NCBI GenBank assembly: GCA_026392935.1
Contig: JAPLBE010000014.1
Coordinates: forward strand, 1-64,000
Direction: 5' to 3'
DNA length: 64,000 nucleotides
Source of the DNA: Actinomycetota bacterium
Lineage (GTDB): Bacteria; Actinomycetota; Actinomycetes; Nanopelagicales; Nanopelagicaceae
Shown here piece by piece: positions 26,034 through 32,583 of the stretch. Position 1 is the stretch's first letter. Every line of letters begins with the position of its first letter. Made by a program: the position numbers and the translations under genes. The notes below the pieces were generated by a model. It searched no databases and was not told the origin of the DNA. It was given only the letters and a program-made list of their open reading frames with translations.

Positions 26034-26699
26034 CTAAGCCACGAAGGGAGCACTTTCAACGGTAATACGTGAGACCGCTGTCATTAGCGCAAGTGGCTGC
26101 ACGAAGTTAATCTTCCAGCTACCTGTAAGAGCGTTATATGAAATTCTCAAATATCCGTCGTCGTAACCCACATTTACTTTTGCTTGGTTCACCAAAGTCA
26201 GGGCCCTTCGCGCATATGCCGTATATGCCGCAGATGTTGCTCCTGAGTACACCGTGCTGGTATCAAAAACAGTAAGTAGTGTCGCTGTTCCAGTTTCGGC
26301 TGTCGCTGTCACCGTATCGGTTCTGATAACTCCGACATACATAGGTAACGCAGTTGCAGATGATGAATCATAGAATTGAAAGCGTAAGAATTTACTTGCG
26401 CACTTAACAGGATCGAGACCGATTAATTCCACGGAATCAACTCGTGAATATCCGTTGTACTGCGCCGCAGTAGGAAATAAACCCACCGAGATCCAGCTGT
26501 CGCACGCTCGTACAGTAAAGAGTCCCTGTCCGAATTCAATTCTGCCGTTACCGATTGAAAAGTTCGTAGCCAGCGTCGATCCGCCAAATATAAGCGCAGC
26601 AACTAAACCAAAAATTATTTTAGGATTGCGAAACCATCTCCGCTCAGAAGAATCGGCAGAGTCCTCCTGCGATTCTCCATCCAACATAAATCGGTTCAC
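26034..26699 (-). CDS. Unknown single-pass membrane protein, partner of the giant secreted protein
   Basis: Not recognised. The 221 residues begin with a short acidic cytoplasmic tail (about 1-28, ending RRWFRNPK), then one hydrophobic helix at about 29-47, then a Ser/Thr/Ala-rich extracellular domain of about 170 residues with two Cys (near 65 and 100) that could form a disulfide. The GTG start overlaps the stop of the 1574-residue secreted protein gene as GTGA, so the two are translationally coupled. By inference it could anchor, chaperone or process that protein. It has no similarity I can name. Confidence 0.7.
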   Translation of the reverse strand: MNRFMLDGESQEDSADSSERRWFRNPKIIFGLVAALIFGGSTLATNFSIGNGRIEFGQGLFTVRACDSWISVGLFPTAAQYNGYSRVDSVELIGLDPVKCASKFLRFQFYDSSSATALPMYVGVIRTDTVTATAETGTATLLTVFDTSTVYSGATSAAYTAYARRALTLVNQAKVNVGYDDGYLRISYNALTGSWKINFVQPLALMTAVSRITVESAPFVA

Positions 26700-29600
26700 G
26701 GGGATATCGTAAACGACGGCGTATAGGCCACCCCTCGCGGACTATCGAGCGCGATTACCCCTGTTATTGCGCCAGATGATGGAACGACCACTTGAACATA
26801 AGTACTGGTGACTGCAGTGACCACCGCATCTTCATAGGGCCTAAAGGTGGCAGTGATCTGTGACGGTGTGAGTCCGGCAAAACCAGTTGAGTTGATACGA
26901 ATCGTTGTTCCCGCTGTCGCGCTACTAATTGCATTTCCATTAATGTCAGAGAAGGCAGAGGCTGTAACAGTCTCAGTGCGCACAATTATCTGATTGCCAC
27001 CATTAAGTGGAATCGCATGGTTGCCACCCGGGGATTGAATTGCGTAGTTAGTGCTCCAGGTAATCCAGGTAATGACAGCAGTTGTGGATTCAACAAAGTA
27101 ATTACGAGTACCAGCTTTCTCGGCCCTGATGGTGCAGGTACCAATATTTGTTGCGGTAATAATCGCATTTGAGCCAAGTGTGCAATTTGCGGTTCCCGCT
27201 GAGACCAGAGTTCTAGTTAAAGTCCCAGGACCAGATCCGCCATAGACATTGATGGGGAAGGAAGAAATGTTTGGATAAGACTCGTATTGGCCAATCGAAA
27301 GTGCCCGCTGGCGCGCTTTGTTAATCGTTAACGTGGCGGTCACAGATTCAACGCCTTGGTAATTATTTAAAGTTGCTGAACTTGAGATAGTAAAAGTCGA
27401 TCCCACTCGATAGACACCAGCATCGGTTGGAATCGTGTTACTTGAAAGTGCAGTTGGACTAAATGCCCGAATTGGGCGAACAGACGGATTGTTGCCTTTA
27501 TTGGTTTGTCCAGAGGCGCCCATACTAAAGTCTTGGGACACTCCAGATGTAGTTGGATTAGTAGCGTTCTGTGTTGAAGACCAGTAGCCGGTGCCATCCA
27601 AATTGCTCAAGGAATTAACTTTGAGGTTGCTATAGATCAAGTTCAACTCACCAATGGAAGGAACGAACCAATCAGTGAAATCTTCAGCAGTGGAATCGGC
27701 AGCCAATCGTGATGCAATCCCCGCAGTTGCACATCCAGCATTTATCAAACGTGTATTTTCTGCACCACTGCCTACATCAGAGCTTGTCCCGGAAATATTT
27801 GTACCACTACATCCCCAAGTGGCATTCGGATCTGCTGCAGTTCCACCCCACGTTCGCGGAGCTGTTGCCAGATAGATACCGCCGCTACTAATTCCCGTAG
27901 CAACGTTGATCACAGTTGGCGAAACATAGAAGACATATCCCCCGCCTGGTGCAACATTGCCGATGGCGCAAGTGCCCCCGTACTCGCAAGAATTTCCTAC
28001 ATATGTTGTTGTCACCGTTGCAGTTTCAGAATTAACCAACCCTGTCACCGTCTGTGTCACAGTCACATTTGCGGGTGATTCGGTATAGGTCACAGAGCTT
28101 GTCGATAGCGTTGTTGTAACGGTAATTGTGTCCGCTTTACTGACCGTGATTCTTAAACCCTGAGAAGTAAATGCCGTCACGCTATCTGTCACAGTCAGGG
28201 TTTCGTAATAGGTCCCTATGGGCAGGGCTGTCCCCACGCGCACTGTTGCCGAGTCGCTATTGAGATTGCTCCAGGCTATTCGTCCATTTTGGTTATTGAC
28301 TGTGCTTAATACTGAGGCCGTTCGAGGACCCGTACCAAATGCAAAGGTAAATACTGCCGTTCGTGTATCTCCATACTTCTGCGTAAATATGGCAGAGCCA
28401 GTACTTGAGGTGATTGTATTTCTGGGGTTGATCATCAGATAGACAGCCGTACTGGTATCTACGATAAACAAGCCAGCTGTATCACTATCGGTAACGACGA
28501 CTCTATATTGATATCTAATTCCACTCGTTGTTGTTTCAAGTGTTGGGGTTATGTAGTTCGCCGAAGTTAATCCAGTACCAGTTGTTGCATTAGCCCACGA
28601 CGTTCCAGTATCGGTAGAAACTTGCCACCTGAAGTTACGTGTTAGCGGTGAAGTTGCCGAACCAGAGACTGTGAAAGTTTCCGTTAACCCAGCAGTGAGA
28701 GTGTCAAACCTTGGTCCAGTAAAGATTGGTGCGCTTGCGGTGATCCAGCGAATGATGATGATTCCGGAAGTTCCGTTATAGCCGTTTCCAGATGCTTGGC
28801 CGGTGTTGTATGCAACGTTGCCACCGAATCCAGTATTTGCCTGCCCGAATTGTGATGCGTTGCTAGCGCCCCAATAAATGCTGTAGCCACCGCGTCCATA
28901 TTCAATGGAAGTTGTAGGATCAACAAACCCTGGGCCTGGTGTGCCAGGTTCGTTTCCACATGATCCATTGGTTGCAGCACCACGCGCACCACCGCCGGCA
29001 CCACCCCAGCCCCAGGCTCCTCGACCACCGTTGTTTCCACTACTTGTAATTCCACCGGCAGCGTTAAATCCAGAGCACCCACCACCAGAATATGCATGAC
29101 CCGAGCTACCGCCGCCTGTTGCAACCGTTGCGTCACCAACACCAGAACCACCAGGTGTATAACCAGATCCAAAACTTCCACCCGCACCGCCACCAAGTGC
29201 TGTTGCAGATGATCCATAATTTATTGTGCTGCTCTGACCGCTGCGCAACTGAGCATCATTAGCCTGCGACAAAGCACCAAGGCCACCTTGCCCGACCTTA
29301 ATTGAAGTGACGGAGTTCGGGGTCAATGAAATTGTTGGAAGGTAAGTAACTCCGCCGCCGCCACCCGCACCTGCTGGTTCAGAAGTTCCTGTATTTCCCT
29401 TTCCTCCACCGCCACCTCCGCCGACAACTATGGCCGTGGCCTGAGTAACTCCGCCAGGTACTTTCCAACCGCCACTTGAGGTCAAATAAGATCGAGTAAA
29501 AGTTCTCATTGTGTATGCCTGAAATGTTGAAGCTGTTGCATTCTCCACCCAAGACGGGGAACCAACTATTGTTAAATCGCTCGCTGAAGTGGTTCCACTT

Positions 29601-31420
29601 GCTCGGTTATAAAGTTTAGTACCGGTTCCCTCATTAAAGTCATAGTAGAGAATCAAGTTTGAGGTATCTGTCGGTCCGTAAGTATGCATATCCGAAACAA
29701 TCTGTGCGAGCGACCTCTCACTTCGAAAGACCCGGACTTCATCTACATTGCCAACAAAAGGCGCAGAAAAATTCACACCATCGGATGATCTTCCGCCAAT
29801 AGTGAATGGTTGACTGGAATTGGTTAAGTTGCCGGTAGAAGCACCATCTGCAGTACCCGTCCAAACTAGTTGTCCATTTATATAGAATTTGGCTGTGCTA
29901 CTTCCGGACGCTCGCGTCAAAGCTACGTGCTGCCACTCATTTAGTTGGGTCGAAATTCCAGTATTCACGCCTGCCCATTCGCCTGAACCTTGCAAACCAA
30001 AGTACCAAGTGGTGCCGATCGTCCCGAGTTCATAGGAATTCTCTTTGTTCATGACCATGTTCCAAGTACCTGAAATAGTGGCTGTTTGATAAACCCAGGC
30101 TTCTAACGTGATTGCACTCGTCACATCTAATTCACTGCTGTCGGGCGCCCATGCATATTTTCCCGTACTAAGAGTTAATGCTGTATCAGTTTCGCTCCCT
30201 CCGCCACGAGTAAAGACTCGAGATTCAGAAGTAGTAGCTAATCCTGCGTTACTTGTATAAGTGAGTGTGTATGAATTGCCAGGTATGCCATCGAGCCCAA
30301 GATTATCGAATGTAGCAACACCTTGAACTGCATCAGCCGTAGCGGTGCCAATAATGCGACCACTCAAACCTGTAACTGTTGCTGTGATTATCGTTGAGTT
30401 ATCAGTGGTTACTGTCTGACCATTTGAATCCTGAACAGCCACCTGTGGCTGAACAGACAGCGGTTCATTCAGAGTTGTGCCGACGGATGCTCTATGAATG
30501 CCAAGTTTGGTCGCCGCGGTCGAACTTAAGGTGATTCCATATTTACGCGCTAGATACGTTTCGACTTTGACGATATCTGCGACAGCGAGAATGGTCGGAT
30601 ATGAAATTACCTCAGCAATCTGGAAATCAGAGACCTCCGCTGGGAATTGCCCACCATTTACGACTACAGAATGACCAACAACGCTAGTGCTTGGAGAAAT
30701 TGTCCGATCCGTGCCAAAGGCGCGATATCGACCGTTACATGCTGACGTGCTACTCGACACATAGCCGCAGTCAGCGCTGAGTAACCAATTGTTACCGCTA
30801 TTTCCCGTTAACTCACTTACTGCACTCGAACTTTGCGTAAGCCAACCATAATGAAAGGCAACGCCGGCAGAACAGGCCCAGAATCCCGAAAGCCAGTTAT
30901 TTGCTGTGGATGAAAAAATCCGGTTCTTTTTCGCCGCGTTGTTTGTTATGTGATTTCCAGCCGTATCGCAATAGTTCGCGTTCGTTAAATTAGTCTGTTG
31001 AGGTGCATATCGTGCGACGTGAAAAAATGTATAGTCATTTGGATTGGTTGCATTTCCATATGCAACTGCCGCAGGGAATGTGATGCTGGTTAGGTAACTA
31101 CCCTGGACTGCCACTACTGATTTGTTCGCACCGAGAGTTCCTGCCGTATTTGTTACTTTCAGAGCACTGGAGCTAATTGTTGCTCCTGTTCCACCTCTTG
31201 CTTCAGGCCATGTTGTTGATCCAGATGTATAGCTATCTGCCAGGAATTGATAGACAGTTCCAAGTCCAGACGGCAGATTGTTCGCATCGGCAGCACTAGC
31301 AATTGGAGTCGTCAGTTGAGGTGCAAGTACTGGGGGAACTACTACCTGAAGAAGCGAGAGCAGGAGAATCGCCGATACTGCACGCGCGATGCGTGCTGGG
31401 CTCAACCTATTGGCTCTCAT
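26696..31420 (-). CDS. Giant secreted multidomain protein (LamG, glycine-rich, DUF1566-like, TIG-like)
   Basis: The 1574 residues start with a signal peptide (basic start, hydrophobic core about 12-33, Ala-rich cleavage region near 43). Then come: a concanavalin-like region to about 300, ending in the typical VETYLARKYGI; an Ig-like or cadherin-like segment; a second LamG domain (about 410-590: LEAWVYQTA, EWQHVALTR, VDEVRVFRSERS, LILYYDFNEGTG); a glycine-rich domain (about 650-895) ending GTSGIIIIRW; Thr/Val-rich beta repeats; a DUF1566/Lcl-type domain (about 1150-1320: WFVPSIGELNLIYSNL, GYWSSTQ, RPIRAF); and a C-terminal TIG-like domain. It has no sortase motif, C-terminal helix or catalytic motif I recognise. 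Probably a surface or released binding protein. Confidence 0.82.
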   Translation of the reverse strand: MRANRLSPARIARAVSAILLLSLLQVVVPPVLAPQLTTPIASAADANNLPSGLGTVYQFLADSYTSGSTTWPEARGGTGATISSSALKVTNTAGTLGANKSVVAVQGSYLTSITFPAAVAYGNATNPNDYTFFHVARYAPQQTNLTNANYCDTAGNHITNNAAKKNRIFSSTANNWLSGFWACSAGVAFHYGWLTQSSSAVSELTGNSGNNWLLSADCGYVSSSTSACNGRYRAFGTDRTISPSTSVVGHSVVVNGGQFPAEVSDFQIAEVISYPTILAVADIVKVETYLARKYGITLSSTAATKLGIHRASVGTTLNEPLSVQPQVAVQDSNGQTVTTDNSTIITATVTGLSGRIIGTATADAVQGVATFDNLGLDGIPGNSYTLTYTSNAGLATTSESRVFTRGGGSETDTALTLSTGKYAWAPDSSELDVTSAITLEAWVYQTATISGTWNMVMNKENSYELGTIGTTWYFGLQGSGEWAGVNTGISTQLNEWQHVALTRASGSSTAKFYINGQLVWTGTADGASTGNLTNSSQPFTIGGRSSDGVNFSAPFVGNVDEVRVFRSERSLAQIVSDMHTYGPTDTSNLILYYDFNEGTGTKLYNRASGTTSASDLTIVGSPSWVENATASTFQAYTMRTFTRSYLTSSGGWKVPGGVTQATAIVVGGGGGGGKGNTGTSEPAGAGGGGGVTYLPTISLTPNSVTSIKVGQGGLGALSQANDAQLRSGQSSTINYGSSATALGGGAGGSFGSGYTPGGSGVGDATVATGGGSSGHAYSGGGCSGFNAAGGITSSGNNGGRGAWGWGGAGGGARGAATNGSCGNEPGTPGPGFVDPTTSIEYGRGGYSIYWGASNASQFGQANTGFGGNVAYNTGQASGNGYNGTSGIIIIRWITASAPIFTGPRFDTLTAGLTETFTVSGSATSPLTRNFRWQVSTDTGTSWANATTGTGLTSANYITPTLETTTSGIRYQYRVVVTDSDTAGLFIVDTSTAVYLMINPRNTITSSTGSAIFTQKYGDTRTAVFTFAFGTGPRTASVLSTVNNQNGRIAWSNLNSDSATVRVGTALPIGTYYETLTVTDSVTAFTSQGLRITVSKADTITVTTTLSTSSVTYTESPANVTVTQTVTGLVNSETATVTTTYVGNSCEYGGTCAIGNVAPGGGYVFYVSPTVINVATGISSGGIYLATAPRTWGGTAADPNATWGCSGTNISGTSSDVGSGAENTRLINAGCATAGIASRLAADSTAEDFTDWFVPSIGELNLIYSNLKVNSLSNLDGTGYWSSTQNATNPTTSGVSQDFSMGASGQTNKGNNPSVRPIRAFSPTALSSNTIPTDAGVYRVGSTFTISSSATLNNYQGVESVTATLTINKARQRALSIGQYESYPNISSFPINVYGGSGPGTLTRTLVSAGTANCTLGSNAIITATNIGTCTIRAEKAGTRNYFVESTTAVITWITWSTNYAIQSPGGNHAIPLNGGNQIIVRTETVTASAFSDINGNAISSATAGTTIRINSTGFAGLTPSQITATFRPYEDAVVTAVTSTYVQVVVPSSGAITGVIALDSPRGVAYTPSFTISP

Positions 31421-31464: not shown

Positions 31465-32583
31465 TTACTTAGCCTTTTCGGCTGCAGCCAACTGCCCACA
31501 TGCCCCATCGATTTCACGGCCCCTAGTGTCACGAACTGTTACCGGAACACCGTAGGACTCAAGAATTCGCACAAACTCAGCCTCATCTTCGCGGCGAGAT
31601 GCAGTCCACTTAGAACCTGGTGTTGGATTTAAAGGAATGAGATTGACATGCGCATTGCGATTTTTCAGCAATCGACCCAGCAAATCTGATCTCCATGATT
31701 GATCATTGATATCGCGAATCAACGCGTATTCAATTGAGTAACGACGCCCAGTCTTCTTCTCATAGGCATCAGCTGCTGCCAGTACTTCACGAACATTAAA
31801 TCTGTTATTAATTGGAACTAGAGAATCACGTAGTTCATCATCTGGTGTGTGAAGTGAGACGGCTAAGGTGCAGTTGATTCCTTCATCCATCAGCTTTTCA
31901 ATTCCTGGAACCAGGCCAACAGTTGAAACAACTACTGAACGAGCAGAGATGCCAAGTCCATCAGGGTTGGGGTCGGTGATGTTACGCAGCGTGCGCACCA
32001 CTGCGTTGTAGTTAGCAAGTGGTTCACCCATTCCCATAAAGACAATGTTGGATAGTCGAGTTGGTCCACCTGGCATCTCACCATTGGCACAGGCACGAGC
32101 TGCGGCAACTATTTGATCGGTAATTTCTGCCGCCGATAAATTGCGGGTAAGGCCAGCTTGGCCCGTGGCACAAAATGGACAGTTCATGCCACATCCTGCT
32201 TGGGATGAAATGCAGACTGTTGTGCGATCTGTGTAACGCATCAAGACTGACTCAACGAGAACTCCATCGTGTAACTTCCACAAGTCTTTGCGAGTCATGC
32301 CACCATCGGTCGTGCGAGTGGTGACTAGCTCAATCATCTTAGGAGTCAGCGCATCAGCAATTACTTGGCGCTCGGCTGCCGGGATATCAGACCAATCATC
32401 GGGTGTGTGAGATAAATGAGAGAAGTAATGAGTTGCAACTTGGGCTGCGCGAAATGGTTGGAAACCAAGTTCCTTCGCCCATGCTTTTCTATCAGCCGGT
32501 GCCAGATCAGCTAAATGTTTAGGAGCCTTCTTGCGTTGTACTGGCTCATCAAAGACTAATTTTAACTCTGAATTAGTTGTCAT
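31465..32583 (-). CDS. rlmN: Dual-specificity 23S rRNA/tRNA adenine-C2 methyltransferase RlmN
   Basis: Radical SAM enzyme that methylates A2503 of 23S rRNA and A37 of some tRNAs. The CxxxCxxC cluster is Cys 131, Cys 135 and Cys 138 in [14 protein letters not shown]. The other expected features are present: the GMGEPLANY motif, [13 protein letters not shown], and the C-terminal Cys in EIDGACGQL, which forms the protein-RNA methylene bridge. 372 residues. It overlaps cdsA by 4 nt. In most actinobacteria dxr follows closely; here the accessory block intervenes. Confidence 0.97.

Follow-up and report, generated by a model that had tools for sequence, protein, structure and literature searches.

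A recurrent gene pair for a giant secreted protein and a small, probably exported partner in Nanopelagicaceae

How could a very large secreted protein that lacks an anchor of its own be held at the surface of an actinobacterium? The question is raised by two overlapping genes in a 64,000-nucleotide stretch of a Nanopelagicaceae genome (contig JAPLBE010000014.1, positions 1 to 64,000), here called the window. In fresh water, the acI/Nanopelagicaceae actinobacteria rank with the most abundant bacteria, and the sampled genomes of the family are about 1.3 Mb in size, several of them devoting 3–10 kb to one surface protein. The first gene of the pair encodes a giant protein of 1574 amino acids (aa), and the second encodes a small protein of 221 aa. 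Comparative analysis revealed that the pair is genuine and not a chance overlap. The pair probably places the giant on the cell surface in a previously undescribed way, and the small protein is probably an exported immunoglobulin (Ig)-like module of a Nanopelagicaceae family that is linked elsewhere to SipW-type signal peptidases. The genome of the window (G000) comprises 1.35 Mb in 22 contigs and is 96% complete. The features of the locus are as follows:

26696..31420, minus strand: gene for the giant secreted multidomain protein, 1574 aa, ATG start (open reading frame list and Pfam)
26034..26699, minus strand: gene for the probably exported small partner, 221 aa, GTG start overlapping the stop codon of the giant gene (open reading frame list and pair comparison)
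26696..26699, minus strand: four-base GTGA overlap of the two genes, with probable translational coupling (sequence and pair comparison)
31292..31420, minus strand: predicted signal peptide of the giant, about residues 1–43 (site placed by eye)
30200..31291, minus strand: variable N-terminal part of the giant, residues ~44–407 (blastp against the sister giant of G275 at L159, E 1e-5)
29699..30166, minus strand: Laminin_G_3/ConA-like domain of the giant, residues 419–574 (Pfam, E 5.5e-23)
28745..29467, minus strand: Gly_rich_2 domain of the giant, residues 652–892 (Pfam, E 2e-10)
27467..27712, minus strand: Lcl_C/DUF1566-like domain of the giant, residues 1237–1318 (Pfam, E 1.7e-6, below the cut-off)
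26699..27343, minus strand: conserved C-terminal tail of the giant, a two-cysteine domain (taken as Ig-like) and a terminal TIG-like domain (alignments and leave-one-out profiles)
26568..26699, minus strand: N-tail and signal-peptide-like segment of the small protein, residues 1–44, ending S-T-L-A (Ala-44 invariant in 19/19)
26520..26567, minus strand: conserved N-terminal segment of the presumed mature small protein, residues 45–60 (bulky hydrophobics alternate at 47, 49, 54, 56 and 60)
26037..26519, minus strand: beta-sandwich domain of the small protein, residues 61–221, Ig-like by a weak structural match (AlphaFold2 model, VIA)

Recurrence of the gene pair

The initial annotation had placed the start of the small gene inside the stop codon of the giant gene, and both reading frames and the GTGA were confirmed. 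Through this overlap the translation of the two genes is probably coupled. A search for the same pair in related genomes, which the initial annotation had proposed, supports a dedicated two-gene unit. Including that of the window, 21 pairs were found in Nanopelagicaceae, with the giant gene first in six and the small gene first in 15. The two genes overlap in 10 of the 21 pairs (by four bases in seven, by eight in two and by 14 in one); overlaps and gaps of up to four bases together account for 12 pairs, and the gaps of the other nine range from 10 to 152 bases. Start codons were taken from the longest frame or as the nearest plausible ones by eye, and gaps of at least 10 bases are approximate.

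Among the 28 best stand-alone relatives of the small protein in 251 family genomes, 19 adjoin a giant gene on the same strand, five belong to tandem module clusters (that of G064 assigned from coordinates alone) and two lie at contig edges (G005 and G222:C13); the last two are taken up below. The family search scored at most 12 candidates per genome, and some genomes may hold more. The 28 have open frames no longer than 260 residues and E ≤3e-38, a limit chosen after inspection of the list that includes all stand-alone rows down to G222:C13, where the small gene runs off the contig and a 2191-aa frame 12 bases upstream is unlike the giants. The 21 pairs are the 19 from this list, that of G007 and that of the named locus L125, with G264 contributing two. 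The small gene of G099 has in-frame stops as read and was scored as a pair, although it may be broken or misassembled. The giants of G184 and G201 run off the contig at the 3' end, with the tail out of view, and the 5' end of the G271 giant lies off its contig.

In the window, the pair is followed by genes for a DinB_2 protein and an aldehyde dehydrogenase (Pfam), and the gene upstream (31465..32583) is, judging from its sequence, presumably rlmN. G000, G275, G013 and G061 share the order rlmN, giant gene or genes, small gene, dehydrogenase gene; G271, whose locus is divided between two contigs, probably has it too. In G013, three giant genes in a row precede one small gene. The occurrence of the unit at several loci and in both orders points to a functional link rather than to one inherited neighbourhood. 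On viral contigs, no relative was found.

Conserved tail and variable tip of the giant protein

The paired giants with a visible C-terminus have their last ~215 residues in common, whereas their N-terminal and middle parts differ. In the alignments, two domains make up this tail: the first has two invariant cysteines, and the second, TIG-like, reaches to or nearly to the C-terminus. Leave-one-out profiles, from which the tested giant and its near twin were excluded, detected the tail at the C-terminus of all 19 such giants (E 1e-18 to 5e-64, for a nominal search space of 1000), that of the window giant (residues 1361–1573) with E 2.1e-36. A TIG-like end had been proposed in the initial annotation; Pfam TIG (PF01833) gave no match in the window giant itself, but matched 10 of the 19 aligned tails at E up to 0.1 (best 3.8e-9). 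Across the family, this profile gave matches in 87 of the 251 sampled genomes; many of these matches are weak or cover a single domain. Domains of this kind are thus more widespread than the pairs. Tail-bearing proteins are also encoded within ~5 kb of the module and peptidase clusters described below, in G168, G224, G243, G118 and G080.

A reciprocal check was made on ten strong tail matches outside the set from which the profile was built (G151, G271:C67, G178:C13, G224, G184:C83, G184:C68, G243, G222:C14, G173:C57 and G143). A small gene lies downstream in none of the ten, and the upstream side runs off the contig in nine. In the remaining case, G271:C67, the giant starts beside rlmN; the contig is probably continued by G271:C26, where the end of a giant and the small gene are found. 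A local scan did not re-find the tail in G178:C13 and G143.

It is improbable that the two genes encode separate surface proteins that are co-inherited at variable loci without contact, the small protein working with other modules and the giant alone. Pairs recur at different loci, in both gene orders and with repeated four-base overlaps, 19 of the 28 stand-alone relatives lie beside a giant, and the tail is present in 19/19 paired giants. What speaks for such co-inheritance is that modules also occur without a giant, in tandem clusters and fusions, that tail-bearing giants outside pairs mostly have their upstream neighbour out of view, and that the nearest neighbours of the two paralogous pairs in G264 disagree. 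Distances between small proteins and between tails were correlated across 18 pairs in a Mantel test (r 0.85; 0 of 5000 permutations), and this was set aside as proof of co-evolution, since shared species history alone yields such a correlation.

Ahead of the tail, the concanavalin/LamG-like and glycine-rich domains named in the initial annotation were recovered by Pfam with the E-values given above. The DUF1566/Lcl-type domain was also seen, as Lcl_C (PF07603), but its 28.8 bits are under the Pfam gathering cut-off of 34.9. This domain resembles that of a module-fused Lcl protein (369 aa, contig C17) in the same genome, and an Lcl domain fused to the small-protein module was also found in G092. 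NCBIfam gave no match in the window giant. LamG_3 and Gly_rich_2 were found in several paired giants (Pfam), and others carry PA14 (G013), fn3 (G099, G168), SUEL lectin (G168), SWM repeat (G129) or DUF5122 (G264) domains; at E 0.01, Pfam recognises nothing in the giants of G118 and G003. With its large size, predicted secretion, lectin-like or adhesive domains and repeated stalk domains, the giant appears to fit the fibrillar-adhesin-like class.

The comparison with the closest sister giant, that of G275, points to a swapped tip on a constant base. Residues 408–1574 of the window giant align with it at 91.5% identity (blastp, E 1e-5) and the earlier residues do not align, while the small proteins of the two genomes are 99% identical.

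The initial annotation had described the giant as having no anchor of its own, and this agrees with what was found: among 20 giants searched, the window giant included, none has an LPxTG motif, and none has a strongly hydrophobic C-terminus (no more than 14 of 19 residues are A/I/L/M/F/V/W/G in any such segment of the last 60 residues). Three loci (L088:2996-4924, L089:4500-6398 and L085:15717-17771) encode secreted-looking, tail-less proteins of 630–690 aa that match the LamG/Gly region of the giant; they terminate in R-x-G-x-R and may be attached in another way.

Export signal, fold and family of the small protein

As the initial annotation had stated, the small protein belongs to no recognised family: it has no match in Pfam or NCBIfam, in the 19 aligned members no Pfam E-value falls below 0.02, the members scanned with NCBIfam have no match, and the structure search gave no known unrelated family. 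It does not stand alone. The window's genome holds six further intact module genes (two each on C17 and C19, one each on C4 and C18), and the idea of an orphan was rejected on these grounds. In the five of these six paralogs that were inspected, the module forms the N-terminal ~190 residues of larger proteins, and the fusions of this genome are to Lcl-like sequence (369 aa), sortilin/BNR repeats (494 and 520–555 aa) and RCC1 repeats (537 and 541 aa); the C18 module protein has 407 aa. The RCC1 paralogs (L009:11804-15269, C19 of the same genome) are in tandem, have near-identical N-termini and appear to be exported bacterial RCC1 propellers. An extra module copy at C9:117227-117650, in two pieces with in-frame stops, is apparently a decayed gene.

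The module was detected in 22 of 101 genomes of the genus and in 44 of 251 genomes of the family (7 of 17 genera). In the order sample, all 45 positive genomes (of 251) belong to the same family, and in the class sample nine of 296 genomes were positive, three of them outside the family and weak. Eleven named relatives found by the module are metagenome-assembled genomes labelled Candidatus Planktophila, Candidatus Nanopelagicaceae, Actinomycetota or uncultured actinobacterium, and one Streptomycetaceae. The initial annotation had regarded a small protein widespread without the giant as a refutation of its proposal; such a distribution was found for the family at large, but not for the closest stand-alone relatives. 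Two candidates were discarded: the small module and the giant's tail as the same domain, as no similarity was detected, and a relation to viral fusion glycoproteins, nine chains of which the module profile matched (one at E 1.6e-4, eight at 0.15 or above), taken as chance and confined to one short stretch around a cysteine.

Related modules also occur as two to four genes in tandem. These clusters are followed by genes for a signal peptidase that scores above the cut-off of TIGR02228 (archaeal/SipW-type), a ~510-aa protein resembling a membrane protein and a collagen-like protein. The peptidase is visible in four of the five giant-less tandem clusters (G028, G048, G064 and G280); in G265, the contig ends first. 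Across the 101 genus genomes, a SipW-type peptidase (E<1e-12) was found in 17 of the 22 with the module and in 10 of the 79 without it; at the curated TIGR02228 cut-off, the numbers are 15 and 10. The Fisher p for this association (1.5e-8 and 8e-7, respectively) ignores phylogeny and completeness. Module and peptidase lie within ~3 kb in 14 of the 17 genus genomes that have both. Ten genus genomes (G010, G037, G041, G053, G067, G073, G078, G087, G089 and G100) have the peptidase and no detected module, and more divergent cargo may be present there.

Several other proteins are encoded beside or near these clusters. They include a 1791-aa protein with animal haem peroxidase, RTX repeats, fn3 and He_PIG (L076:291-5666), a collagen-like protein of 285 aa inside a cluster (L077:4030-4887), and, at the corresponding place in L083, L085, L172 and L219, proteins with a weak module match. 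A recurrent one-helix protein of ~160–170 aa with the sequence GW(M/L)(Y/F)AD.(F)LALMVIFLATISFVP (L077:2593-3087, L085:5607-6089 and L217:1507-1998) has a partner of ~240–265 aa, and its helix is MotB-like by eye. In a distant actinobacterium, a SipW-type peptidase with an EAL-type C-terminal part, resembling phosphodiesterases of c-di-GMP (cyclic diguanosine monophosphate), is encoded at L245:8806-10200, ~1.7 kb from a weak module homolog, one of the three outside the family.

The initial annotation took the small protein for a one-helix membrane protein. An uncharged stretch of 18 residues does exist, but its bulky hydrophobic part (I28–F38) is 11 residues long and is followed by G-G-S-T-L-A. 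In the 19-member alignment, Ala-44 is invariant, position 43 is always bulky, position 41 is always S or T, position 42 is S or T in 13 members, and the next residue after Ala-44 is small in 17 of the 18 aligned. The site also resembles the G-T-x-A of PF12389 relatives. Because the Ala-44 region has the pattern of a signal-peptidase-I site, a cleaved signal is more likely than a membrane anchor, and the presumed helix is probably a signal peptide cut after S-T-L-A.

An uncleaved single-pass anchor, the Ig-like ectodomain of which would hold the giant's tail, is accordingly rather unlikely: the short bulky part and the invariant Ala after S/T-x-bulky in 19/19 members argue against it, as does the dedicated signal peptidase of related clusters. 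It would nevertheless supply the anchor that the giant needs, and it gains from the uncharged stretch (11 to 25 residues among the 19 members), which has membrane-spanning length in many, from the failure to find a SipW-type peptidase in the window's genome, and from an N-tail of a kind not usual in ordinary signal peptides: it is acidic, ~25 residues long and keeps S-D-x-Y-H-D-D-P-I-E-E in same-genome paralogs.

AlphaFold2 models of the window's small protein and of a cluster member (19 and 17 alignment rows; predicted local distance difference test, pLDDT, 73 in both) are mostly beta from residues 61 and 40, respectively. The pLDDT falls below 50 at residues 39–58 and 15–39, respectively, where conservation is highest (..N-[IL]-S-[IL]...[IV]-E-F-G-Q-G). 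Both models match Ig V domains best, albeit weakly, with VIA hits to 1zv5_A (Z 5.3; root-mean-square deviation, rmsd, 3.7; 98 aligned) and 7lzp_B (Z 5.4; rmsd 3.6; 98 aligned). The matched chains are mostly 110–130 residues long, and in nearly all rows shown the alignments end at V-domain residue 97–108, a position that we take, by Ig numbering, to precede the last strand. The module, which carries two conserved cysteines, thus seems to be an Ig-like sandwich apparently without its last strand. Within the segment left unplaced, all 19 rows have a bulky hydrophobic at positions 47, 49 and 56; position 60 is bulky in 89% of the rows and position 54 in 79%, and the positions between hold hardly any. 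A donor strand and an open Ig-like groove would have such an appearance, and TasA/TapA-like donor-strand assembly of the module has a likelihood of about one in three. TasA, TapA and pilins were not among the Foldseek and VIA rows shown (mostly Ig V, Z about 5), which excludes nothing.

The same donor-like N-terminus, together with gene overlap in either order, could be expected of a TapA-like assembly factor, that is, a protein that helps the giant to be exported or folded, as chaperone or nucleator, and stays outside the final surface structure; the N-terminal strand of TapA, itself a SipW cargo with a V-set Ig domain, initiates TasA filaments (PMC10151520). Such a role for the small protein is improbable. 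Stand-alone and fused modules exceed paired giants in several genomes, and that of the window has seven intact module genes and one pair; given this surplus, a structural role fits better than a dedicated chaperone for one giant.

Proposed surface display and comparison with known systems

We propose, with about even confidence, that the two genes form a surface-display unit, in which the small partner recognises the giant's tail and ties the giant to the surface, most likely by a donor strand. The giant would be exported with its variable N-terminal and middle domains (LamG/ConA-like, PA14, SUEL lectin, fn3 or Lcl, depending on the species) and its conserved two-domain tail, the last domain being TIG. 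The small protein would be exported as an Ig-like module, translational coupling keeping the two in step, and its signal would probably be cleaved after S-T-L-A. The first ~16 mature residues would act as a donor strand inserting into a neighbouring incomplete Ig-like domain, either another copy of the module or the giant's tail, and the small protein may act as a short fibre or as the base subunit of one. At less than even confidence, this may be extended to a sortase-independent surface system of the Nanopelagicaceae's own. Ig-like donor-strand subunits unrelated to TasA by sequence, processed by SipW-type or ordinary signal peptidases, would build or seed fibres and capture anchorless giants by their Ig/TIG tails, with adhesive tips that are exchangeable and in some genes (Lcl, RCC1, BNR propeller) fused to the subunit.

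Several observations weigh against this proposal. The fold matches are weak (Z 5.3–5.4; Foldseek E 0.16 and 0.016) and maybe reflect just a common arrangement, sequence homology between module and tail was not detected, and hhalign of the module with actinobacterial PF12389 relatives gave probabilities of 0.7% (19 rows, one wrongly extracted) and 1.5% (the other 18). Two of the 28 stand-alone relatives (G080:C21 and G243:C220) have no giant alongside, the giants of G045 and G098 (630–690 aa, LamG/Gly match) have neither a small neighbour nor a tail, and the neighbours of the G264 pairs speak mildly against strict co-evolution. In the window's genome, no SipW-type peptidase passes the TIGR02228 cut-off; the two weak matches (E 6.6e-5 and 2.0e-4) are of a kind that occurs below the cut-off in nearly all genus genomes, and a similarity search of this genome with the cluster peptidase, which had no positive control, was empty. 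Modules without a SipW-type peptidase also occur in G065 (one contig, 100% complete), G003, G005 and G006, so that processing in such genomes would be by another signal peptidase, or none.

On balance, the idea of a coupled surface unit appears strengthened by the comparative evidence. The overlapping partner gene and the giant's tail, both conserved, and the exchanged tips offer a direct way to test how the giant is anchored and whether it contacts cells or particles. No title or abstract describing the pair or the module was found in the literature covered, which lacked most subscription journals.

The nearest parallel is the SipW/TasA/TapA system of Bacillus. In two published accounts (PMC9674648, PMC10151520), SipW cleaves the signal of TasA, the first mature residues of which serve as donor strand, and each unit of the filament is described as V-set Ig-like and made complete by such a strand; TapA is a SipW cargo with a complete V-set Ig fold that starts TasA filaments by its N-terminal strand. 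In both systems, small beta-sandwich proteins with signal peptides are exported or predicted to be, a SipW-type peptidase is encoded nearby (here, in the window's relatives), a conserved hydrophobic N-terminal segment follows the presumed cleavage site, and the core is Ig-like, in the module by a weak structural match. The TapA/SipW operon likewise has overlapping stop and start codons (PMC10151520). The module differs in its two conserved cysteines, in its giant adhesin-like partner, in the SipW-type peptidase not found in the window's genome, and in having no detectable sequence homology; as a member of the TasA family, the small protein was rejected by Pfam (no PF12389, TasA/camelysin, match in 19 module members at E up to 0.1) and by hhalign.

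Chaperone-usher and archaeal donor-strand pili resemble the module in an Ig-like domain that here seems to be without its last strand and in a conserved N-terminal extension with alternating hydrophobics; unlike in those systems, no usher or chaperone was seen here, the host is monoderm, and donor-strand exchange is a prediction. The giant, in turn, is similar to the fibrillar adhesins of monoderm bacteria, which are large and secreted, with repeated stalk-like and lectin-like domains, and many of which have no known anchor (PMC9210967). The anchorless giant of the window differs from these in its conserved C-terminal tail and in the small partner gene that recurs beside it and overlaps its own gene.

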